DNA of 64,000 nucleotides from Streptacidiphilus jiangxiensis. GTDB lineage: Bacteria; Actinomycetota; Actinomycetes; Streptomycetales; Streptomycetaceae. The number at the start of each line of letters is the position of its first letter. The stretch's first letter is position 1. A model generated the notes under the pieces. That model was not told the DNA's origin. It worked only from the letters and a program-made list of their open reading frames with translations, and made no database searches. Below are positions 2,663 to 41,574 of this stretch, piece by piece. Location of the stretch: the NCBI RefSeq assembly GCF_900109465.1, contig NZ_FOAZ01000017.1, forward strand, positions 62,001 through 126,000, given 5' to 3'. The position numbers and the translations under genes are program-made.

Positions 2663-4042
2663 CTAGGAGCCCGGTGTGGTGACCTGCTCCGGGGCCAGCG
2701 AGTTGCCCGCGGCGATGTCGCCGCAGCTGGACGGGGCGGTCCGGCCTGCGAAGCGGTCGGCCAGCCAGCCCAGCGCGGTGGGGGCCCAGGCGACGGCGGT
2801 GCCGATGTGGCTGAGCAGGTTGAACTGCTGGTACTGGATCGCCCGGTCGCCGGTGGCGCAGTACTGCCGGGCGAGGGCGCGCACGTCGCCGGCGACCATC
2901 ACACCGTCGCCGGTGCCGATGCCGGGCACGTTGCTGAAGGTGCCCTCGAAGACGCCGCCGTCGCCCTGACCGATGTAGCCGGGGACGGTGGGCGAGGCCG
3001 CCGAGCCGAGGTTGATCTTGTTGACGGCGTCGACGAAGGCCGGCACCGAGTCGGGGTTCGCATACTGCGGCTTGGCCATCTGCTTCCAGGTGAGCCCGGG
3101 GTGCTCGCCGAGCGCGTTGACGATCGAGGCCTGCTGCATGGAGTTGTAGATCTCCAGGCCGTAGCTGCTCAGGTAGGGCTTGAGGTCGAGGCCGTAGGAG
3201 CGGGCCACACCGATCAGCGCCATCGGGATGACGCCGGTCCACACCACCGAGCCGTCGACGTAGCGCAGGTTGTGCGCCGGGTCCACCAGCAGACCGCCCT
3301 CGGCGAAGCCGACCAGCCGGCGGTTGACCTCCGGCGCGTAGGCGGGGGCCAGGGCGGCGGCCCAGTCGGTGGCGATCGCGCCGCCGGAGTAGCCCATCAG
3401 CCCGAAGCGGGTGTCGCCGTCCACGCCGGTGCCGTCGGCCCGGGTGGCGGCCCGGATCGAGTCGAGCGTCGCGGCGCCGTACTCCGGGCCGGCCGCGAAG
3501 TCGGCGGTCTGGCCCTCGGTGTCGGGGATGACGACGCTGTAGCCCTGGGCCAGCAACGGGACGAGCAGGACCGTCTCGGCGTTGGGGATGACGCCGCCCA
3601 GGGTGAGGTTGCCCGCGATGGCCCGGGAGGGGCTGTCCGCCGGGTTCAGCGAGTCGTAGAACGACTGGTAGGAGACGGCGCGGGTGCGGTCTCCGGTGAG
3701 GCTGCGGATCACCGAGGTGACGCCGGCGACGGGCCGGTTCTGCGCGTCGACGGTGCGGTAGAGCAGCTGGATCACGGTCAGCGGCGTCGGGATGCCGAGG
3801 ACGTGGTACGGCAGCGTCCGCTGTTTCAGCACGGTGCCGGGCGCGATCGACGCCAGCGGGGTGCTGCCGTCGTAGGTGTAGAACGGGTCGTCCGTCGCCG
3901 AGGTCGTGACCCGCTGACTCGCGATCGCCGTGGTGGCGGCGGATGCGTGGGGCGCGGCGACGGCGGAGACGGCGGGAGCGGCGGCGGCTGTCGTGGTGGC
4001 GACGACGGCCGTGGCCAGGAGCCGGACGGCGGTTCTGGGCAT
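2663..4042 (-). CDS. Secreted lipase of the secretory-lipase (LIP) family
   Basis: 459 residues. The start is the ATG at 4040-4042, preceded by a strong GGAGGA site. Residues 1-36 form a signal peptide (MPRTAVRLLATAVVATTTAA, then an Ala-rich stretch ending near ASA). The nucleophile elbow is GYSGG with Ser219, and an FAEGG segment and a C-terminal LSHIG histidine region fit the secretory lipase alpha/beta-hydrolase family (fungal and actinobacterial LIP). It should hydrolyse acylglycerols or esters outside the cell. It is transcribed alone and divergent from the MprF-like gene, with a small inverted repeat in the shared intergenic region. Confidence 0.88.
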   Translation of the reverse strand: MPRTAVRLLATAVVATTTAAAAPAVSAVAAPHASAATTAIASQRVTTSATDDPFYTYDGSTPLASIAPGTVLKQRTLPYHVLGIPTPLTVIQLLYRTVDAQNRPVAGVTSVIRSLTGDRTRAVSYQSFYDSLNPADSPSRAIAGNLTLGGVIPNAETVLLVPLLAQGYSVVIPDTEGQTADFAAGPEYGAATLDSIRAATRADGTGVDGDTRFGLMGYSGGAIATDWAAALAPAYAPEVNRRLVGFAEGGLLVDPAHNLRYVDGSVVWTGVIPMALIGVARSYGLDLKPYLSSYGLEIYNSMQQASIVNALGEHPGLTWKQMAKPQYANPDSVPAFVDAVNKINLGSAASPTVPGYIGQGDGGVFEGTFSNVPGIGTGDGVMVAGDVRALARQYCATGDRAIQYQQFNLLSHIGTAVAWAPTALGWLADRFAGRTAPSSCGDIAAGNSLAPEQVTTPGS

Positions 4043-4094
4043 GGGTCCTCCACGGTTCGTGAAACGGCTCACACGGACCTGACGCCGGAGTAAG

Positions 4095-4108
4095 TTACCG
4101 CTTGGTAA
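4095..4108. promoter_or_regulatory. TetR-like inverted repeat in the lipase/MprF intergenic region
   Basis: TTACC-GCTT-GGTAA, perfect 5-bp arms, 53 bp upstream of the lipase start and 94 bp upstream of the divergent MprF-like gene. Size and symmetry resemble operators of TetR regulators of lipid genes. No TetR gene is present in the window, so the factor is unknown. Confidence 0.35.
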
Positions 4109-4201
4109 GTCACCTGCCCAGAGATCTGACCGAAGTTCATCAACATCGCAGGTCAGCGGCGTGCCCGCGCCGCGGCGGGCGAGCGGTGGAATCCTGGAGA
4201 C

Positions 4202-6715
4202 ATGACCGGAGCTGCTCTCGAGCAGACGGGTGGCGGTCGACTGCACCGCTGGTGGGCTGCGAGCGCCGGCGTCCTCGGCATCCTCGCCAAGGCGCCGCTG
4301 TCGCTCACCTTGGTCGTCGTCTTCCTTGTTCTCGGCCTCGGCGCGCGCGGCGCGACCGACTGGGCGGGCCTCGGCACCTCCACGGTCGCCGAGGGGCGCT
4401 GGTGGTCCCTGTTCACCTACGGCGTGTGGGAGTACGGCACCTTCGGCTTCCTCGTGGCGATCGGGCTCACCCTGATCACCCTGCTGCCCGCCGAACGACG
4501 CCTCGGCTCCGTCAAGGCCGGCTCGCTCTTCCTGCTCTGCCAGGTCGGCGGCGGCCTGCTGGCCGTCGCGGCCATGGAGATCGGCGGTGTCGCCGGGGAC
4601 GGCTGGCTGGGCGGCCTCATCGGCAACCGGACCGTCGGCCCCACGCCCGGCCTGGTCGGGGTGGGGCTGGCCTTCAGCGCCACACTGACGGCGCTGTGGC
4701 GACGCCGCCTGCGGCTGCTGCTGGTGACGGGCACGCTGCTGTTCCTGTTCTACGCGGGCGAGGTCGTCGACCTCGCCCGGACCGGCGCCGCGGCGATCGG
4801 CCTGACCGCCGGCGTGCTGCTGTTCACGAAGCGGCGCTCGCTGCGCGACCTGCGGCTGCTGCCGTCCTCCCACGCCGAGACGCGGCTGCTGGTCGCGGTC
4901 TTCGGCTCGGTCCCGGCGCTCGGCCCGCTGGTCACCTGGTTCACCCGCGACCACGACGGACCGCTCGCGCTCTACCGCGAGCTGTTCATCGGCGTGGACA
5001 CCTCGGCCGCCTCCGTCGACGCGGCCTGCGCCGGCCCCCTGGCCGGCACCCAGGGCTGCACCAACGCCCGCGTCGACTTCGCCCTGGCCAACAGCCCCGA
5101 CGTGTTCGTCTACTGGGTGCCGCTGCTGCTCATCGCCGTGGTCGCGGTCGGACTGTGGCGCGGGCGCAGCATGGCCTGGTGGGCGGCGGTGATCCTGCGC
5201 CTCCTGCTGCTCGCGGCCCTGTTGCGCTACTTCCTGCTCAAGCACGAGACCGCCACCGGGTCCTTCACCCTCTACTCGATCCTCCAGCTGTGCGTCCCGA
5301 CCGCGATGCTGGTGGTGCTCTTCCTGACCCGGCGCCACTTCCGGATCCGGGCCGAGCGGGAGACGGTGCTGACCTTCCTGTCGATCGCCGTGCTCACCTT
5401 CCTCGCCGTGGGCGCGGTCTACATCAAGTTCGGCTACGACGCGCGCGCCGAGTTCGACCCCGTCCCCGCCTTCCACCAGCTCGTCTCCGACTACCCCAAG
5501 CGCCTGGTGCCGCCCGCCTACCTGCCGTTGATGGGCAAGCACCTCGGCACCTTCCTGCCGGTCACCCTGCACGCGAAGGCGCTGTGGGAGTTCACCGGGC
5601 CGGTGTTCTGGCTGATCGTGCTGGGCGGGCTGCTGGTGGCCTTCTGGCGGGCCGGGGTCCGCCACAAGGTCGACAGCTCCGCCCCCGCCGAGGAGCTGCT
5701 GCTGCGCCACGGCGGATCGACGCTGTCGTGGATGTCCACCTGGCCGGGCAACGACCACTGGATCTCCCCCGACGGCGGGGCGGCGATCGCGTACCGCGTC
5801 ATCGGCAACACCGCGCTCACGCTGGGCGGCCCCTACGGCGATCCGGCGAGCCGTGGACCGGCCGTCGCCGAGTTCACCGCGAGCTGCGACGACCGGGGCT
5901 GGACGCCGTGCTTCTACAGCGTCTCCCAGGAGACCAAGGACGTGACCGACGCGCTCGGCTGGTCCTCGCTCCAGGTGGCCGAGGACACCCTGCTGCTCCT
6001 GCCCGACCTCGCCTTCACCGGCAAGCGGTGGCAGGACGTGCGAAGCGCCCTCAACCGGGCCGGCAAGGCGGGCGTGAGCGCCCACTGGTACACCTGGCCC
6101 ACGGCGCCGATCGCCGTGCAGGAGCAGGTCCGGGCCCTGTCGGAGGAGTGGGTTGCGGACAAGGGCCTGCCGGAGATGGGCTTCACCCTCGGCGGCCTGG
6201 CCGAACTGGAGGACCCCCGGGTGCGCATCCTGGTCGCGCTGGACCAGGAGAACACCCTGCAGGGCATCACCAGCTGGCTGCCCTGCTACCAGGACGGGCA
6301 GCCGGTCGGCTGGACGCTGGACTTCATGCGCCGCGGCAACGGATCGTTCCAGGGCGTCATGGAGTACCTGATCGCCACCGCGGCGCTGACGTTCAAGGAC
6401 GAGGGCGCGCAGTACCTGAGCCTGTCCGGCGCGCCGCTGGCCCGGATGGACCGCGGCGAGCAGGCAGCCCCGCTGCAGCGCCTGCTCGACGTCCTCGGCC
6501 GTGCGCTCGAACCGGCCTACGGCTTCCGCTCGCTGCTGCACTTCAAGGCGAAGTTCCAGCCCACCTACCTGCCGCTGTACCTGGTCTATCCCGACCCCGC
6601 CCAGCTGCCCGCCATCGCCAACGCGATCGGCAAGGCCTATCTGCCGCATGTGACGACCGGTCAGATGCTGCGTCTGAGCCGCCGTTTCACCGCCGGCCAG
6701 ACCCGTTGGGGTTGA
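4202..6715 (+). CDS. MprF-like membrane protein with C-terminal phosphatidylglycerol aminoacyltransferase (DUF2156) domain
   Basis: 837 residues; ATG preceded by GGAG. About the first 480 residues are membrane-embedded: an N-terminal rhomboid-like bundle (YGVWEYGTFGFLVAIGLTL, LLPAERRLGS), then further helices. The C-terminal 330 residues are a soluble acyltransferase-fold domain of the MprF/DUF2156 type, recognisable from GNDHWISPDGGAAIAYRVIG, GGPYGDP and the late LHFKAKFQPTYLPLYLVYPD. Family members transfer amino acids from tRNA to phosphatidylglycerol and flip the product, changing surface charge and resistance to cationic peptides. Unlike mycobacterial LysX there is no fused lysyl-tRNA synthetase, so it would use cellular tRNA. 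The amino acid used cannot be told. Confidence 0.85.
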   Translation: MTGAALEQTGGGRLHRWWAASAGVLGILAKAPLSLTLVVVFLVLGLGARGATDWAGLGTSTVAEGRWWSLFTYGVWEYGTFGFLVAIGLTLITLLPAERRLGSVKAGSLFLLCQVGGGLLAVAAMEIGGVAGDGWLGGLIGNRTVGPTPGLVGVGLAFSATLTALWRRRLRLLLVTGTLLFLFYAGEVVDLARTGAAAIGLTAGVLLFTKRRSLRDLRLLPSSHAETRLLVAVFGSVPALGPLVTWFTRDHDGPLALYRELFIGVDTSAASVDAACAGPLAGTQGCTNARVDFALANSPDVFVYWVPLLLIAVVAVGLWRGRSMAWWAAVILRLLLLAALLRYFLLKHETATGSFTLYSILQLCVPTAMLVVLFLTRRHFRIRAERETVLTFLSIAVLTFLAVGAVYIKFGYDARAEFDPVPAFHQLVSDYPKRLVPPAYLPLMGKHLGTFLPVTLHAKALWEFTGPVFWLIVLGGLLVAFWRAGVRHKVDSSAPAEELLLRHGGSTLSWMSTWPGNDHWISPDGGAAIAYRVIGNTALTLGGPYGDPASRGPAVAEFTASCDDRGWTPCFYSVSQETKDVTDALGWSSLQVAEDTLLLLPDLAFTGKRWQDVRSALNRAGKAGVSAHWYTWPTAPIAVQEQVRALSEEWVADKGLPEMGFTLGGLAELEDPRVRILVALDQENTLQGITSWLPCYQDGQPVGWTLDFMRRGNGSFQGVMEYLIATAALTFKDEGAQYLSLSGAPLARMDRGEQAAPLQRLLDVLGRALEPAYGFRSLLHFKAKFQPTYLPLYLVYPDPAQLPAIANAIGKAYLPHVTTGQMLRLSRRFTAGQTRWG

Positions 6716-34839: not shown

Positions 34840-35595
34840 ATGGCACAGGTCGGCGACACGGCAGCGGGAGCGGGACCGGCGGCGACGGCGGGTAACGCAC
34901 TGGCCGTGCTGGTCGTGGAGGACGACCAGGGGATCGCCGACTCGCTGGTGCGCGGCCTGACCCGGGCCGGTTACCTGGTGCGCCGGGCCGGGACCGGAGC
35001 GGAGGCGCTGGCCGCGCGGCCCACCCCCGACGTGGTGCTGCTCGATCTCGGGCTGCCGGACCTGGACGGGGTGGAGGTCTGCCGACGGCTGCGCCGCCAG
35101 ACGGACGCCGCCATCATCGTGGTCACCGCGCGCGGCGAGGAGGCCGACCGGGTGGCCGCCCTGGACGAGGGCGCGGACGACTACCTGGTCAAGCCGTTCG
35201 GCCTGGCCGAACTGCTGGCCCGGCTGCGCGCGGTGCTGCGTCGCACCCGGCCCAGCGGCGGCGAACTGGTCGTCCACGGGCCGCTGACCGTGGACCCGCG
35301 CACCCAGCGGGTCACCGTCGGCGGGCAGGAGGTCGCGCTGACGCCCAAGGAGTTCGACATCCTGCGCTGCCTGGCCGTGGACCCGGGCCGGGTGGTGACC
35401 CGGCAGGAGATCCTGGAGCGTGCCTGGGACGCCCACTGGTACGGGCCGACGAAGGTGCTGGACGTCCACATCGCCGCACTGCGCCGCAAGCTCGGCGTGC
35501 CGGGCCTGGTGGAGACCGTCTACGGCCGGGGCTTCCGGCTGGGCGACACCGACGCCGCGACGACCCCCTCGGCCGTCCCGGGGCCCGACGCGTGA
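34840..35595 (+). CDS. OmpR-family response regulator
   Basis: 251 residues. Receiver domain with VVEDD near residue 25, phosphoacceptor Asp69 in VVLLDLGLPD, Thr in VVTARG and Lys in DYLVKPF. Winged helix at about 150-235 (ALTPKEFDILRCLA, KVLDVHIAALRRKLG, VYGRGFRLG). No ribosome site precedes the ATG; TACGCT is exactly six bases upstream, the same arrangement as at 9702, so the mRNA is probably leaderless. The stop overlaps the kinase GTG. It may control the electron-transfer operon immediately downstream. Confidence 0.92.
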   Translation: MAQVGDTAAGAGPAATAGNALAVLVVEDDQGIADSLVRGLTRAGYLVRRAGTGAEALAARPTPDVVLLDLGLPDLDGVEVCRRLRRQTDAAIIVVTARGEEADRVAALDEGADDYLVKPFGLAELLARLRAVLRRTRPSGGELVVHGPLTVDPRTQRVTVGGQEVALTPKEFDILRCLAVDPGRVVTRQEILERAWDAHWYGPTKVLDVHIAALRRKLGVPGLVETVYGRGFRLGDTDAATTPSAVPGPDA

Positions 35596-36989
35596 CCAGG
35601 CGCATCGCCCTCAGCGTGCTGAGTCTCGTGCTGGCCCTGCTGGTGCTCGCCGTGGTGCCGCTGGGCATCTCCATCACCGCCCGGGAGAACGACTCCTTCC
35701 GCGAGGAGACCGCCGCCCGGGCGCGGACCGTCGCCTCCGCCGCGGAGGAGCACCTGTCGGACCATCGCTCCGACGCGGACGCCCGTGAGCAGCTCGACGC
35801 CGCCGCGGCGCGTGGGGACTGCGCCCAGGTCTACGACGCGCACGGCACCCTCCTCTACGCGACGCCCTGCCCCACCGGCGCCCTGCCGCCCGGCGCGCCG
35901 GCCGAGGTGCTGCGCACCGGGAAGCCGCAGTCCGCCCAGCGCGACGACCGGTTGACCCTGGCCGTCCCGATCGGCGACACCGTGCCGCCGTCGGGGGCGC
36001 TGGTCTACTCCCGTTCCACCGACGGCCTGGACGAGCAGTTGCTGGCCATCTGGGGCTGGCTCAGCCTGTGCGCGCTGGGCGCACTCGGCGCGGGCGTGCT
36101 GGTGGCGGTGCGGTTGGCCCGCTGGGTCAGCCGCCCCCTGGTCGACCTGGACGAAACGGCGGCCCGGCTGGGCGAGGGCCGGCTCGACGCCCGCGCGACG
36201 GTCACCCGCGGCCCGCCCGAGGTGCGCCGGCTCGCCACCACGTTCAACACCATGGCCTCCCGCACCGAGAACCTCATGCACGGGCACCGCGCGGTGATCG
36301 CCGACGTCTCGCACCAGCTGCGCACCCCGCTCACCGCGTTGCGCCTGCGGCTGGACCTGCTGGCGGCCGACGCGGACCCGGAGACCGCACAGGAGCTGGG
36401 CGGCGCGCAGGACGAGATCGCCCGGCTGTCCCGGCTCGTCGACGGTCTGCTCGCGGTCGCCCGCGCGGAGAACTCCGTCCCCCGGCAGGTGGCGGTGCGC
36501 CTCGACGCCGTGGTGGCCGACCGGATCGCCGCCTGGGAGCCGGTGGCCGAGGAGCGCGGCGTCCGGCTCGCCACTCAGGGCCCGGCCGGGCTGACCGCGC
36601 TGCTGACCTCCGGCGATCTGGAGCAGGTGCTCGACAACCTGTTCGCCAACGCCCTGGACGCCGTCCCGACTGGCGGCCGGATCGTCGTCCGCGCGGTGCC
36701 GGACCCGAAGCAGGGCGAGGTGCTGCTCTCCGTCGTCGACGACGGCCCCGGCATGGACGAGGCGGCACGGGAGCGGGCGTTCCGCCGGTTCGACACCGGG
36801 CGGGCGAGCGGCACCGGGCTGGGCCTGGCCATCGTGCACCGCCTGGTCACCGCGAACGGCGGGCGGGCCGCGCTGGAGCCGACCCCGGGCGGCGGCCTCA
36901 CCGTCCGACTGTGGTTGCTGGCCGCCCCGGTGGCCTCGCGTTCCGAGCGGCGGGAGCGCCGCGACCGCCGGGATCGGCCGAACGACTGA
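35592..36989 (+). CDS. Sensor histidine kinase
   Basis: 465 residues from a GTG overlapping the regulator stop (GTGA). Two membrane helices (about 5-27 and 155-178) flank an extracytoplasmic sensor of about 125 residues with two cysteines. HAMP follows (RLARWVSRPLVDLDETAARL), then HisKA with the phosphorylated His near residue 240 in ADVSHQLRTPLTALRLRLD, and the ATPase boxes NLFANALDAV, DDGPGMD and GTGLGLAIVHRL. The signal is unknown. Context suggests redox or envelope stress. A 16-bp palindrome lies directly after the stop. Confidence 0.93.
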   Translation: MTRRIALSVLSLVLALLVLAVVPLGISITARENDSFREETAARARTVASAAEEHLSDHRSDADAREQLDAAAARGDCAQVYDAHGTLLYATPCPTGALPPGAPAEVLRTGKPQSAQRDDRLTLAVPIGDTVPPSGALVYSRSTDGLDEQLLAIWGWLSLCALGALGAGVLVAVRLARWVSRPLVDLDETAARLGEGRLDARATVTRGPPEVRRLATTFNTMASRTENLMHGHRAVIADVSHQLRTPLTALRLRLDLLAADADPETAQELGGAQDEIARLSRLVDGLLAVARAENSVPRQVAVRLDAVVADRIAAWEPVAEERGVRLATQGPAGLTALLTSGDLEQVLDNLFANALDAVPTGGRIVVRAVPDPKQGEVLLSVVDDGPGMDEAARERAFRRFDTGRASGTGLGLAIVHRLVTANGGRAALEPTPGGGLTVRLWLLAAPVASRSERRERRDRRDRPND

Positions 36990-37113: not shown

Positions 37114-37602
37114 ATGGACTCGTCCGAGCAGCAGCCCGCCGCCCGCGCCCGTTCCCACCGCAGGGACCGCTCGGTGCGCCGCGTGGGCAGCGCCACCCGC
37201 TGGGTGACCGTGGCCGCCGCGGCCGGATCCGTCGCGCTGGCCACCGGCTACGCCCAGGCCTCCACGGGCGGCGGCTCGACAGGCACCACGAGCCCGTCGC
37301 CCTCCCCCTCCGCGTCCACGACGAGTCCGTCCCCGAGCGCGTCCGCGAGCAGTCCCTCGGCGCGCCCGAGCAGCGCCTCTCCCACGCCCACGCCCACCCG
37401 GACGGCGCCCAGCCCGACGACGCCTCGGCCGACGCCGCGCCCCACGCACAGCCTGATCCCCGCCCAGGTCGCCCCGGCGACCACCCGCGCCTACGTGCCG
37501 CCCGCCCCGGCCCCCACCACGGCCGCCCCCGCGCCGACCCAGGCCGCTCCGCCGCCCGCGCCGACCCCGCAGCCCACACACACCACCACGGGTGGCTCAT
37601 GA
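37114..37602 (+). CDS. Membrane-anchored Ser/Pro/Thr-rich protein
   Basis: 162 residues; GGAG seven bases before the ATG. A basic N-terminus (RARSHRRDRSVRRVG) and one hydrophobic segment (WVTVAAAAGSVALATGYAQA) lead into about 115 residues made almost only of Ser, Pro, Thr and Ala. In comparable actinobacterial operons this position is held by a protein with an FMN-binding domain, the ApbE substrate. Here I see neither that domain nor the SGA[ST] flavinylation motif. It may be a surface spacer or a degenerated carrier. The stop overlaps the ApbE start (ATGA). Confidence 0.7.
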   Translation: MDSSEQQPAARARSHRRDRSVRRVGSATRWVTVAAAAGSVALATGYAQASTGGGSTGTTSPSPSPSASTTSPSPSASASSPSARPSSASPTPTPTRTAPSPTTPRPTPRPTHSLIPAQVAPATTRAYVPPAPAPTTAAPAPTQAAPPPAPTPQPTHTTTGGS

Positions 37603-38567
37603 CCATCCCTCCCGTCGCCGCGGCGGAGCCCGGCCAGTCCTCCTTCCCGGTGTTCGGGACGACCGCGCATCTGCTGGTCACCGACCCGGGCACGCTGCCG
37701 CAGGCACTGCGGCTGCTGCGCACCGAGCTGGCCGCGATCGACGCGGCCTGCAGCCGCTTCCGCCCCGACTCTGAGCTCTCCCGCGTCAACGCGGCCGCCG
37801 GGACGGGCCACGCCGTGACCGTGGGCCTGCGGCTGGCCGAGGCCCTGGAGGTGGCGCTGACGGCGGCCGAGGAGAGCGGCGGCCTGGTCGACCCGACGGT
37901 CGGCGCGGCGGTGGTCGGCCTCGGCTACGACCGGACCTTCGCCTCCCTGCGCCCCGAGCAGCTGGGCACCCCCGTGACGGCGCCGGCGCCCGGCCGGCGC
38001 GCGATCGAGTGGGATCCGGCGCGACGTCGGCTGCGCCTGCCCGCCGGCACCGCCCTCGACCTCGGCGCGACGGCCAAGGCCTGGGCCGCCGACCGCGCCG
38101 CACGGCTGCTGGCCGCGTCGATCGGCTGCGGCGTGCTGGTCAACCTCGGCGGCGACCTGGCCGTCTCGGGCGCCACCCCGGCGGGCGGCTGGCGCATCGC
38201 CGTCGCCGACGACCACCGCGCGCCCGCCCCCGACTCCCCCGTCGTCGCCGTGACCGGCGGCGGGATCGCCACCTCCGGCACCGCCGTGCGCACCTGGCGG
38301 CGCGACGGCCACCCGGTGCACCACGTCGTCGACCCGCGCAGCGGCCGCAACCCCGAGCCGTGCTGGCGCACGGTCACCGTCGCCGCCGCGACCTGCGTGG
38401 CCGCCAACACCGCCGCGACCGCCGCCCTGGTCCTGGGCCCCGAGGCCCCGACCGTGCTGCGGCACGCCGGGCTGCCCGCGCGGCTCGTCCACGTGGACGG
38501 CACCGTGCTGCGCCTCGGCGGCTGGCCCGAGGACACCCCTGCGCCTGCCCCGGGAGACGCCGCATGA
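37599..38567 (+). CDS. apbE: FAD:protein FMN transferase (ApbE-like)
   Basis: 322 residues. ApbE landmarks: FGTTAHLLV at the start, AIDAACSRFRPDSELSRVNA, SGGLVDPTVGAAVVGLGYDR, ALDLGATAKAWAADRAARLL, GVLVNLGGDLAVSG and GIATSGTAVRTWRRDGHPVH followed by HVVDPRSGRNP. The enzyme moves FMN from FAD to a Ser/Thr of an exported or membrane flavoprotein. No signal peptide is clear, so it could act inside or be exported with a partner. It sits in a chain of overlapping genes with redox membrane proteins. No acceptor protein with the flavinylation motif is visible in the window. Confidence 0.9.
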   Translation: MTIPPVAAAEPGQSSFPVFGTTAHLLVTDPGTLPQALRLLRTELAAIDAACSRFRPDSELSRVNAAAGTGHAVTVGLRLAEALEVALTAAEESGGLVDPTVGAAVVGLGYDRTFASLRPEQLGTPVTAPAPGRRAIEWDPARRRLRLPAGTALDLGATAKAWAADRAARLLAASIGCGVLVNLGGDLAVSGATPAGGWRIAVADDHRAPAPDSPVVAVTGGGIATSGTAVRTWRRDGHPVHHVVDPRSGRNPEPCWRTVTVAAATCVAANTAATAALVLGPEAPTVLRHAGLPARLVHVDGTVLRLGGWPEDTPAPAPGDAA

Positions 38568-39295
38568 ACGCCGCCCTGCTCGCCGCGAGCACCGCGCCGA
38601 GCCCTCTGTGGTACGCCACCCGCGCCGGCGGCACCGTGGCGCTGGTGCTGCTCACGGCCACGGTCGCGCTCGGCATCGCCGTCGGTGGCCGGCACGCGCC
38701 GCGCACCGTGGCCCGGTTCGAGGTCTCGGCGCTGCACCGGAACCTGGCGTTCCTGACGCTCGTCTTCCTCGCCCTCCACATCGTCACCGCGGTCCTGGAC
38801 ACCTTCGTCCACCTGGGCTGGTGGATCACGCTGGTGCCCTTCACGGCGAACTACCGCACGCTGTGGCTGGGGCTCGGCACGGTCGCCCTCGACCTGCTGC
38901 TCGCGGTCGCGCTGACCAGCGCGACCAGCGGGATCCGGCTCCGGCTCGGGCAGCGCCGGTGGAAGGCCGTGCACTGGCTCGCCTACGCCTCCTGGCCGAT
39001 CGCCGTCTTCCACGCCGCCGGGACCGGGACGGACACCCGCGACACCCTCCAGCTCGCCCTCTACCTGATCTGCCTCGGCGCGGTCGTGCTCGCGGTGTGG
39101 TGGCGGCTGTTCCGGGCCGGGCCCGGACACGCCGTGGCCCGGTGGACGGCCGGACTGGCCACCCTGGCCGTGCCGCTGGCCCTGGTCGGCTTCCTGCACG
39201 TCGGCCCGCTCGCCCCCGGCTGGTCCCACCGCGCCCTCGCACCGGCCGTCACGACGACCGCCGCGCACGCAACGACGGAAGGGGTGACCCGATGA
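38564..39295 (+). CDS. Ferric-reductase-like transmembrane protein
   Basis: 243 residues, six or so membrane helices. Histidines in pairs of helices (SALHRNLAFLTLVFLALHIV, KAVHWLAYASWPIAVFHAAG) are placed as heme ligands of the ferric reductase/YedZ-like transmembrane domain. It has no FAD/NAD domain, so electrons must come from another subunit, for which the NuoF-like protein encoded next is the obvious candidate. Start and stop overlap neighbouring genes by ATGA. Likely role: transfer of electrons across the membrane to an extracytoplasmic acceptor. Confidence 0.85.
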   Translation: MNAALLAASTAPSPLWYATRAGGTVALVLLTATVALGIAVGGRHAPRTVARFEVSALHRNLAFLTLVFLALHIVTAVLDTFVHLGWWITLVPFTANYRTLWLGLGTVALDLLLAVALTSATSGIRLRLGQRRWKAVHWLAYASWPIAVFHAAGTGTDTRDTLQLALYLICLGAVVLAVWWRLFRAGPGHAVARWTAGLATLAVPLALVGFLHVGPLAPGWSHRALAPAVTTTAAHATTEGVTR

Positions 39296-40644
39296 CCGCC
39301 GAGGCCGCCTACGACGAGGCCCACGACGCCACCAGAGCGCTGCCGCTCGCCGACGGCTCCCGTCCCGGCCCGCACGGGACCAGGCTGCTGGCAGGCTGGT
39401 TCCGCACCGGCCGCGCCGCCGACCTGACCGACCACCTGGACCGCTACGGCCCGCTTCCCGCCACTGCTCCCGCACCGCTGCGGCAGGCCGTCGACGAGGC
39501 CGGGCTGACCGGTCGCGGCGGCGCCGCCTTCCCGACCGGCCGCAAGCTGAGCACCGTGGCGGCCGGACGCGGCCCCGCCGTCGTGGTCGCCAACGGCATG
39601 GAGAGCGAGCCGGGCAGCCTCAAGGACCAGACGCTGCTGCAACTGGCCCCGCACCTCGTGCTGGACGGGATCGCGCTGGCCGCCCGCGCCGTCGGCGCGA
39701 ACGCCGCCCACCTGTGCGTGGCCCGGACCCGCACCGAGCAGGTCCGCGCGCTGCGCGGCGCGCTCGCCGAGCGCGTCCGGCTGCGGCTCGACCCGGTCCC
39801 GGTCCAGCTGCACGAGCTGCCGCACCACTACGTCTCCAGCGAGGAGAGCGCGCTGGTCCACTGGCTGAACGGCGGCGACGCCCGGCCCACCGCCACCCCG
39901 CCGCGCCCGTTCGAGAGGGGCGTCGGCAAGCGCCCGACGCTCGTCGACAACGTCGAGACGCTGGCCCAGCTGACCCTGATCGCCCGTTACGGCCCCGCCT
40001 GGTACCGCGAGGCGGGCGCGCCCGACGCGCCCGGCACCACGCTCGTCACGCTCAGCGGCGCCGTCCACCACCCCGGCGTCTACGAAGCCCCCATGGGCGC
40101 ACGACTGGGGCAGCTCCTCGACCATGCGGGCGCGGCGGCCGAGCGGCTGTCCGCCGTCCTGGTCGGCGGCTACTTCGGCAGCTGGCTGCCGGCCGAGGCC
40201 GCGCTGTCGGCCCGGTTCACCAAGCAGGACCTCGCCCAGCTCGGCGCCGGTCCCGGCGCGGGCGTGCTGGTCGCCCTGCCGGAGCGCGCCTGCGGCCTGG
40301 CCGAGACCGCCGACGTCCTGGGTTTCCTCGCCCGCAACAGCGCCCAGCAGTGCGGCCCGTGCCGGTTCGGCCTGCCCGCCGTCGCCGAGGACTTCGCCGC
40401 GCTGGCCGCGGGCCGCCTCGACGGCCCGTCCCTCACGCGCCTGGAGCAGCGCGTCGGCCTGCTCGCCGGCCGCGGCGCCTGCCGCCACCCCGACGGCGCG
40501 TCCCGCCTGGCGGCGACCGCACTGCAGACCTTCGCCGCGGACGTCGCCCGGCACGTGCAGTTCGGCCCGTGCGGTGGCGCGTCCACGTCGCCGGTGCTCG
40601 CCGTGCCGCAGGGTGCGGTGCCCGGCCCCCAGGAGTGGAGGTGA
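39292..40644 (+). CDS. NuoF-like NADH-binding flavoprotein (complex I 51-kDa family)
   Basis: 450 residues. FMN/NADH fold: GRGGAAFPTGRKLSTVAAG, VVANGMESEPGSLKDQTLLQ, then YVSSEESALVHWLNGGDARP and PTLVDNVETLAQL, an SLBB segment (VTLSGAVHHPGVYEAPMG) and a C-terminal iron-sulfur region. The cluster motif reads SAQQCGPCRFG with a distant GACRHP: the first of the four cysteines in NuoF (SCGxCxPC) is Ala, leaving three. It would oxidise NAD(P)H on the inner face and feed the ferredoxin and the membrane protein in the same operon. It is not a complex I subunit by context. Confidence 0.85.
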   Translation: MTAEAAYDEAHDATRALPLADGSRPGPHGTRLLAGWFRTGRAADLTDHLDRYGPLPATAPAPLRQAVDEAGLTGRGGAAFPTGRKLSTVAAGRGPAVVVANGMESEPGSLKDQTLLQLAPHLVLDGIALAARAVGANAAHLCVARTRTEQVRALRGALAERVRLRLDPVPVQLHELPHHYVSSEESALVHWLNGGDARPTATPPRPFERGVGKRPTLVDNVETLAQLTLIARYGPAWYREAGAPDAPGTTLVTLSGAVHHPGVYEAPMGARLGQLLDHAGAAAERLSAVLVGGYFGSWLPAEAALSARFTKQDLAQLGAGPGAGVLVALPERACGLAETADVLGFLARNSAQQCGPCRFGLPAVAEDFAALAAGRLDGPSLTRLEQRVGLLAGRGACRHPDGASRLAATALQTFAADVARHVQFGPCGGASTSPVLAVPQGAVPGPQEWR

Positions 40645-40874
40645 GCGTCGTGCCGTTCACACGATCCCGTGAACTGGCGCTCCGGATCGACCGGATCGCC
40701 TGCGAGGGCCACGGCGCCTGTGCCGAGTTGCTGCCCGAACTGCTCTCCCTGGACGAGTGGGGCTTCCCGATCGTCCACCGCGCCGCCGTCCCGCCCGAGC
40801 TCGCCGCGCACGCGCGGCGCGCGGTCGCCGCCTGTCCGGTGCTGGCGCTGCGTCTGGAGCGTGGCCGGTCGTGA
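40641..40874 (+). CDS. Three-cysteine ferredoxin
   Basis: 77 residues from a GTG overlapping the NuoF-like stop (GTGA), with AGGAG upstream. Cysteines occur as CEGHGAC and, 40 or so residues later, ACPVLAL. The C-x5-C...C-P pattern is that of actinobacterial 3Fe-4S ferredoxins which usually serve cytochromes P450. Here the neighbours suggest it accepts electrons from the NuoF-like protein. Confidence 0.88.
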   Translation: MSVVPFTRSRELALRIDRIACEGHGACAELLPELLSLDEWGFPIVHRAAVPPELAAHARRAVAACPVLALRLERGRS

Positions 40875-40899
40875 CCCTGTCGACGCCGGGCTGAACGAG

Positions 40900-40907
40900 T
40901 TCTTAGT
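40900..40907 (+). promoter_or_regulatory. TTCTTAGT element, copy 2
   Basis: Same octamer as at 37023-37030, same orientation, 69 bp upstream of the cytochrome b-like gene, in the only sizeable gap of the redox cluster. Suggests common control of the operon and the cytochrome gene. Confidence 0.4.
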
Positions 40908-40968
40908 CACCGATCATGCAGACTCTGCGGACAGGTCCCCCGTCGGCCCGCCCGGAAGGAAGCACCCG

Positions 40969-41574
40969 GTGACCACAGCACCCGTCGCCACCTCGCGCCA
41001 GGAGCAGCGACAGTCACGCGGCCCCGAGGGCAACGCCCGGCTGACCGCCTCGGTGGGCACGGTCCTGCTCGTGCTGCTGGCCGTCCAGGGCTTCACCATC
41101 CTGTCCCTGACGCAGCTGCTGACGATCCACTTCTTCGTCGGCATGACGCTGCTCGGCCCCGTCGCGCTCAAGATCGGCACGACCTGTTACCGGGCCTACC
41201 GCTACTACCGCGGCGACCCCGCGTACCGCCGCGCCGGCACCCCGCCGCTGCTGCTGCGCCTGCTCGGCCCGCTGCAGATCCTGATGACGGTCGCGGTGCT
41301 GGCCACCGGCTGCACGCTGGCCCTGGTCGGCCCCGGCGATCTCGCGCACACCGTGCTGTTCCTGCACAAGGCCGCGTTCTGGCTCTGGGTCGGCCTGACC
41401 TCCGTCCACGTCCTGGCCCACCTCCTGCGCCTGCCGCGCCTGGTGAGCGCGGACCTCCGCCGCAGCGACCCCGTGACCGGCCGCGCCCTGCGCTGGACCC
41501 TCCTCGGCGCGTCCCTCGCCACCGGTGCGCTGATCGCTCTCGCAGGCGTGCACCTGGCCGCGAACTGGGGATAG
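40969..41574 (+). CDS. b-type cytochrome-like membrane protein
   Basis: 201 residues from GTG 40969 (GGAAGGA eight bases upstream). Four membrane helices with histidines at family-like places: LLTIHFFVGMTLLGP, LFLHKAAFWLWVGLTSVHVL and AHLLRLP, consistent with two b hemes or one heme pair of the cytochrome b561 type. A short basic insert RAYRYYRGDPAYRRAG joins helices 2 and 3. It has its own promoter region with the TTCTTAGT element but belongs functionally with the upstream redox genes. Quinone or menaquinone contact is an inference. Confidence 0.75.
   Translation: MTTAPVATSRQEQRQSRGPEGNARLTASVGTVLLVLLAVQGFTILSLTQLLTIHFFVGMTLLGPVALKIGTTCYRAYRYYRGDPAYRRAGTPPLLLRLLGPLQILMTVAVLATGCTLALVGPGDLAHTVLFLHKAAFWLWVGLTSVHVLAHLLRLPRLVSADLRRSDPVTGRALRWTLLGASLATGALIALAGVHLAANWG

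Follow-up and report, generated by a model that had tools for sequence, protein, structure and literature searches.

ApbE attaches flavin mononucleotide (FMN) covalently to proteins carrying the motif D-x-x-[ST]-G-A-[ST], whose seven residues suffice, and a flavin tag engineered on this basis performs best when placed at a protein end (PMC12052999). In the literature examined, the substrates given for ApbE belong to proteins with folded domains. The described systems closest to the one considered here are the MsrQ-like flavinylation clusters, 31 of which include a NuoF-like protein (Meheust et al. 2021, PMC8238504) and which typically carry a gene for an FMN-binding domain, the FMN_red proteins, which ApbE flavinylates on a C-terminal extension without structure (Huang et al. 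2024, PMC11334425), and exported electron carriers of the FMN_bind family (PF04205) encoded beside an ApbE. We have analysed a 64,000-nucleotide stretch of the Streptacidiphilus jiangxiensis genome (assembly GCF_900109465.1, contig NZ_FOAZ01000017.1, positions 62,001 to 126,000, forward strand; hereafter the window), which at positions 37114-41574 contains a cluster resembling the MsrQ-like ones in combining a ferric-reductase-like membrane protein, an ApbE and a NuoF-like protein, but in which a small, domain-free protein with a long low-complexity tail stands in the place of the FMN-binding-domain gene. We propose, with a probability of about 0.7, that this exported tail protein is itself the ApbE substrate, bearing FMN on its C-terminal Ser and acting as an electron carrier fed by an NAD(P)H-dependent chain.

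The layout of the locus (Table 1) is as an earlier sequence-only reading had described it: Pfam searches and inspection of the sequence bear out the genes, their coordinates and the overlaps that join them (ATGA at 37599, 38564 and 39292, and GTGA at 40641), and the domains fit the suggestion that electrons could pass from NAD(P)H across the membrane. A two-component pair lies directly upstream of the tail gene. The same reading had observed that the exported product of the tail gene lacks an FMN-binding domain, and had concluded that the flavin acceptor is encoded elsewhere, that a novel attachment site is used, or that the FMN domain has been lost. The observation is correct, as there is no match to PF04205 or indeed to any Pfam or NCBIfam family. 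It had further stated that the protein has no SGA[ST] motif, which is true of the literal string but in substance is probably wrong, since the C-terminus (...HTTTGGS) is a conserved, motif-like end.

A search with the NuoF-like protein yielded 35 orthologous loci, all from Actinobacteria by title, in which the partner genes recur to the extents given in Table 1. An ApbE gene is present in 23 of them, with a fragment in a further one (L027), and a small domain-free tail protein precedes the reductase in 34; the tail-gene stop and the ApbE start share an ATGA in 20 of the 23 loci measured. Neither BLAST with the FMN_bind protein of the S. jiangxiensis genome (at C41, described below) nor an FMN_bind model found an FMN_bind protein in any of the 35. 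Local loss of an FMN_bind domain and assembly error are therefore both rejected, because the orthologous loci hold a domain-free protein of the same kind.

The tail proteins were compared as a set of 37, comprising those of 34 of the 35 orthologous loci (L033 counting twice), that of the window and a paralogue at C75 in the same genome; they were chosen by eye from their position before the reductase and an Arg-rich N-terminus ahead of a hydrophobic helix, L027 being dropped because its stretch begins inside ApbE. Thirty-six of the 37 end in [ST]G[AG]S-COOH, against 0.14 expected when the part after the helix is shuffled. Fifteen of these ends have Ala (SGAS or TGAS, literal instances of [ST]GA[ST]) and 21 have Gly (SGGS or TGGS, the window having TGGS), while matches to [ST]G[AG]S account for 6 of 2914 internal tetramers of the tails, and 21 of 3276 six-frame reading frames of at least 100 residues from the survey loci described below end in the motif. 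The C-terminal end is the best-kept part of the low-complexity region, and R23, P148, G160 and S162 are the only invariant positions in an alignment of 20 tail proteins. The weight of the motif lies in its position and conservation rather than in the rarity of its DNA pattern, which is ordinary in the S. jiangxiensis genome (38 matches, compared with 56 for a reversed control), so that a rare DNA word is ruled out as an explanation. An acceptor motif in the partner proteins was likewise rejected, as none is conserved: [ST]GA[ST] is absent from 37 reductase, 35 ferredoxin and 17 cytochrome proteins and occurs at scattered positions in 5 of 36 NuoF-like proteins. A single SGAT occurs in the ApbE of the window, at residue 190, and none of 24 other ApbEs contains [ST]GA[ST].

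Two variants of the tail protein may be recorded separately. L033 has a tandem pair (3844-4676) with the ends TTTSGAS and TTSGGS, and L081 encodes, on the opposite strand (4168-4716), a longer and probably secreted protein, seemingly with a folded domain, that ends in TPTTSGGS.

The association between this type of tail and a particular type of ApbE was examined across the class to which the organism belongs, in which ApbE matches occur in at least 89 of 148 genomes; 78 neighbourhoods were taken from other genomes (in approximate list order with omissions, more than one coming from several of the genomes) together with two from S. jiangxiensis. At the position of the catalytic Asp these ApbEs have D in 32 cases, N in 31 and E in 16, with one unreadable (L106), and the residue separates them by neighbour. 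An FMN_bind protein accompanies 31 of the 32 D-type enzymes and none of the 31 N-type or 16 E-type ones, and a NuoF-like protein none of the 32 D-type enzymes but 24 N-type and nine E-type ones. The FMN_bind model used here was seeded with two FMN_bind proteins and iterated on the same loci; Pfam agreed with its calls in all seven cases checked, two of them below the Pfam cut-off. Tail candidates, defined blind to the C-terminus, were found in 24 of the 31 N-type loci, 10 of the 16 E-type loci and 3 of the 32 D-type loci. The 26 candidates at N-type loci include 15 that end in the strict motif, [ST]G[AG]S (0.20 expected), and 22 that end in [ST]x[AG]S (0.73 expected). At E-type loci none of 11 candidates has the strict ending, two end in [ST]x[AG]S (0.10 expected) and four contain [ST]GAS (0.76 expected); none of the four D-type candidates ends in either form. 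The blind definition missed tails at L054 (TGAS), L095 (TSGGS) and L086 (SSGS), and a second TGAS tail at L061.

A conserved C-terminus might also be a recognition tail, read by a protease, an assembly factor or a membrane partner and resembling the ApbE motif by chance, in which case the protein would be a stalk or spacer; the Gly of the motif is less well kept than the terminal Ser and the small residue preceding that Ser, as would be the case in a C-terminal recognition signal. We consider this unlikely. Fifteen of the 37 tails have the literal SGAS or TGAS, and in the tails of three E-type loci (L061, L064 and L072) TGAS is internal, so that the motif is not merely a signal of the C-terminus. 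The exception among the orthologous loci, L007, also argues against it: the operon has no ApbE, its tail ends in PSHSAYRAS where that of L006 has PSHTTSGAS, and a search of its genome found just one ApbE gene, a D-type one beside an FMN_bind protein. Ten further loci have no ApbE next to them, but all nine of the genomes concerned carry an N-type gene elsewhere. The apparent joint loss of N-type ApbE and tail motif at L007 is suggestive, albeit a single case.

The enzyme itself invites a second alternative. The model of the window ApbE has the full ApbE fold (pLDDT 88.8), and its top 39 Foldseek matches are ApbE, Ftp or FmnB structures, but Asn270 replaces the catalytic, Mg2+-binding Asp (Asp285 in Vibrio and Asp301 in Listeria), as Asn does in all 24 ApbEs of the related loci. 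Listeria FmnB binds both Mg2+ ions through Asp301, and Ala at its Mg2+-binding residues strongly lowers or abolishes activity (PMC8906456), which favours a protein that is no longer an FMN transferase and has an FAD-binding, FAD-hydrolysing or scaffold role, nothing in the operon being flavinylated. This too seems distinctly improbable, since Ser226, His241/242 and Asn270 are invariant in an alignment of 13 sequences (A1), which speaks for a working site, and the neighbouring tail protein keeps an ApbE-like motif.

There remains the option of an acceptor encoded elsewhere. A genome-wide search for FMN_bind carriers, as the sequence-only reading had proposed, does find one in S. jiangxiensis, albeit not in this operon: three ApbE genes were found (four matches, two of them within one gene), and Pfam, which may overlook divergent members, gives a single FMN_bind match. 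This protein, at C41, has the site VSGATYT and lies between its own D-type ApbE and a reductase resembling, by sequence, the ferric-reductase type with fused FAD/NAD domains; it differs from the tail protein in having a folded domain, an SGAT site away from the C-terminus and a partner ApbE in which the Asp is retained. The paralogous operon at C75 encodes a protein ending in TTSGGS, an N-type ApbE and a ferric-reductase-like protein, and no NuoF-like gene was found in the stretch of it that was read. Eight other genomes (G123, G093, G021, G057, G049, G038, G013 and G150) each have one ApbE among the matches listed, of the N-type, and no FMN_bind match at E 0.001, an absence made uncertain by the divergent FMN_bind proteins that Pfam misses. 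Four of them have strict tails, and those of G049 and G038 end in TQGS and THGS. NqrB/RnfD gave no match in the first six or in S. jiangxiensis, and DUF2271, searched in the same seven genomes, gave only one, in G049 and below the cut-off. Among 33 genomes with N-type ApbEs that were searched (G001 being left out), 18 have an FMN_bind match somewhere, usually alongside other ApbEs. That the ApbE of the window modifies the canonical FMN_bind protein at C41, or another protein, while the tail protein merely tethers the complex, is thus very improbable, given that the C41 protein has its own ApbE and reductase, that the eight genomes have no FMN_bind match for their only listed ApbE, and that NqrB/RnfD and DUF2271 gave no match in six of them and in S. 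jiangxiensis but for the one DUF2271 match. A further FMN_bind protein of the survey, at L110 (1066-3687), has three VSGATYT sites and three FMN_bind stretches and is predicted to be multi-flavinylated.

The sampling was extended to 40 loci from other classes of the phylum, where 19 of the ApbEs have E at the catalytic position, 18 have D and three have N, and the tails are looser; many E-type loci there combine a reductase with a low-complexity protein whose ends are such as SRAS, SDGS and SGSR. The narrow FMN_bind model found no match near any of the 40, whereas Pfam places one inside two of the stretches (G257 and G185) and, genome-wide, finds one for 14 of the 18 D-type genomes, so that the narrow model misses distant members. 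At three of these ApbE loci (L147, L151 and L155) there is a second small protein, whose long C-terminus is rich in Asp and Glu. The operon is also carried on plasmids, for which four records were viewed, the Nonomuraea record being without annotation. Those of Rhodococcus and Cnuibacter (L174 and L175) have the operon with tails ending in RSAGS (annotated as hypothetical) and TTKGS, respectively, and a VIT-family protein nearby, which hints at iron; no ApbE was seen in the stretch viewed of the Streptomyces NBC_00648 plasmid record.

Of the three options, a novel attachment site at the C-terminal [ST]G[AG]S of the tail protein is therefore the one that we favour. The N-type ApbE, encoded by the overlapping gene, would take FMN from FAD and join it through a phosphoester to the hydroxyl of the terminal Ser. 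The tail protein would have no folded flavin domain; its one helix would be a membrane anchor, and roughly 100 low-complexity, presumably disordered residues would serve as a mobile arm, carrying the flavin back and forth from the outer membrane surface of the cell to acceptors within the cell wall or outside it. From NAD(P)H, electrons would pass through the NuoF-like protein and the ferredoxin to a two-haem ferric-reductase-like protein, then to the FMN of the tail and on to an extracytosolic acceptor, the whole presumably under the control of the two-component system.

Several observations weigh against this proposal. The Asp that stands six residues before the acceptor in the known motif is absent upstream of S162 (its replacement by Ala is reported to have little effect; PMC12052999), and Gly rather than Ala precedes the proposed acceptor in the window and in 20 other homologues of the 37, as it does in all 15 strict tails of the survey, where the reported motif has Ala. 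Among the 26 N-type candidates, seven end in [ST]x[AG]S with a residue other than Gly and four match neither form, [ST]GAS at any position is not enriched (1 seen, 2.92 expected), and 7 of the 31 N-type and 6 of the 16 E-type loci have no tail candidate at all; neither tail nor reductase was seen in G013 or G150, two of the eight genomes whose one listed ApbE is N-type. In a tree of 82 rows all N-type ApbEs group together (100/100), while D needs two changes and E three; as the N-type enzymes have a single origin, their tails are not independent, so that the test is one of conservation against the drift of the remaining tail. With Asn for Asp, the N-type enzyme could be inactive or perform other chemistry. 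A crude measure of hydropathy, applied to the N-terminal 45 residues of 24 ApbEs (maxima 0.62 to 1.95), showed no clear signal peptide and, as the tail is predicted to lie outside, flavin attachment would have to precede export; cytosolic ApbEs are on record (PMC12052999), and the MsrQ-like cluster study kept only genes with a predicted signal peptide, a filter that may hide such enzymes (PMC8238504). Finally, four D-type loci outside the class (L140, L141, L153 and L159) have a reductase in genomes without an FMN_bind match, so the residue at the catalytic position does not always tell the substrate; its tie to the partner holds within the class surveyed, not everywhere.

These exceptions weaken the boldest extension of the proposal, for and against which we find the case evenly balanced: that membrane-tethered disordered arms, with FMN on or next to the last residue, form a widespread class in Actinomycetota, modified in the cytosol by the Asn and Glu subfamilies of ApbE and exported afterwards, and thus a natural flavin tag.

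The partner proteins show features of their own. The ferric-reductase-like protein has six long helices and scores 27.4 bits with PF01794, just below the cut-off of 28, and its best Foldseek matches, STEAP and NADPH oxidase, are weak, with none at E <= 0.001. In the Fe-S region of the NuoF-like protein and its homologues, Ala or Ser takes the place of the first Cys of the customary CxxCxxC (35 of 35 readable homologues), and many of them have one more Cys towards the C-terminal end (GPC), which may be a ligand that has moved.

Table 1. Genes and proposed modification site of the flavin electron-transfer locus, in window positions
Feature	Position	Strand	Basis and remarks
Response regulator	34840..35595	+	Reading frame; start codon inferred; stop overlaps kinase start by 4 bases
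Sensor histidine kinase	35592..36989	+	NCBIfam histidine-kinase matches; homologue in 29/35 related loci
Tail protein, proposed FMN acceptor: Arg-rich N-terminus, one hydrophobic helix, Ser/Pro/Thr-rich tail	37114..37602	+	Homologues aligned
C-terminal TGGS (residues 159-162), proposed flavinylation site; Ser162 proposed acceptor	37588..37599	+	Motif conservation
ApbE-family protein, N-type (Asn270 at catalytic Asp position)	37599..38567	+	PF02424, E 5.8e-51; fold
Ferric-reductase-like (MsrQ-like) membrane protein, four invariant His	38564..39295	+	PF01794; homologue in 35/35 related loci
NuoF-like NAD(P)H-binding flavoprotein (predicted)	39292..40644	+	PF01512, PF10531, PF10589
Single-cluster ferredoxin	40641..40874	+	PF13459; homologue in 34/35 related loci
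Cytochrome-b561-like membrane protein, looser association	40969..41574	+	Weak Pfam match, E 0.0022; homologue in 17/35 related loci

No description of a natural disordered or C-terminal-tail ApbE substrate was found in the open-licence PMC literature, although one may be in print elsewhere. The C-terminal extension of the FMN_red proteins belongs to a folded flavin-binding domain (PMC11334425), whereas the tail proteins show no domain. The engineered flavin tag is alike in being a short terminal ApbE motif to which flavin is attached without a flavin-binding domain, but is man-made, has [ST]GA[ST] with the leading Asp and is served by an ordinary ApbE (PMC12052999). If our proposal is correct, extracytosolic electron transfer by flavin would be possible without a flavin-binding domain, and a substrate would be supplied for those apbE genes that have no FMN_bind partner; it would also raise the questions of how catalysis proceeds without the usual Asp and how a cofactor-loaded protein is exported.

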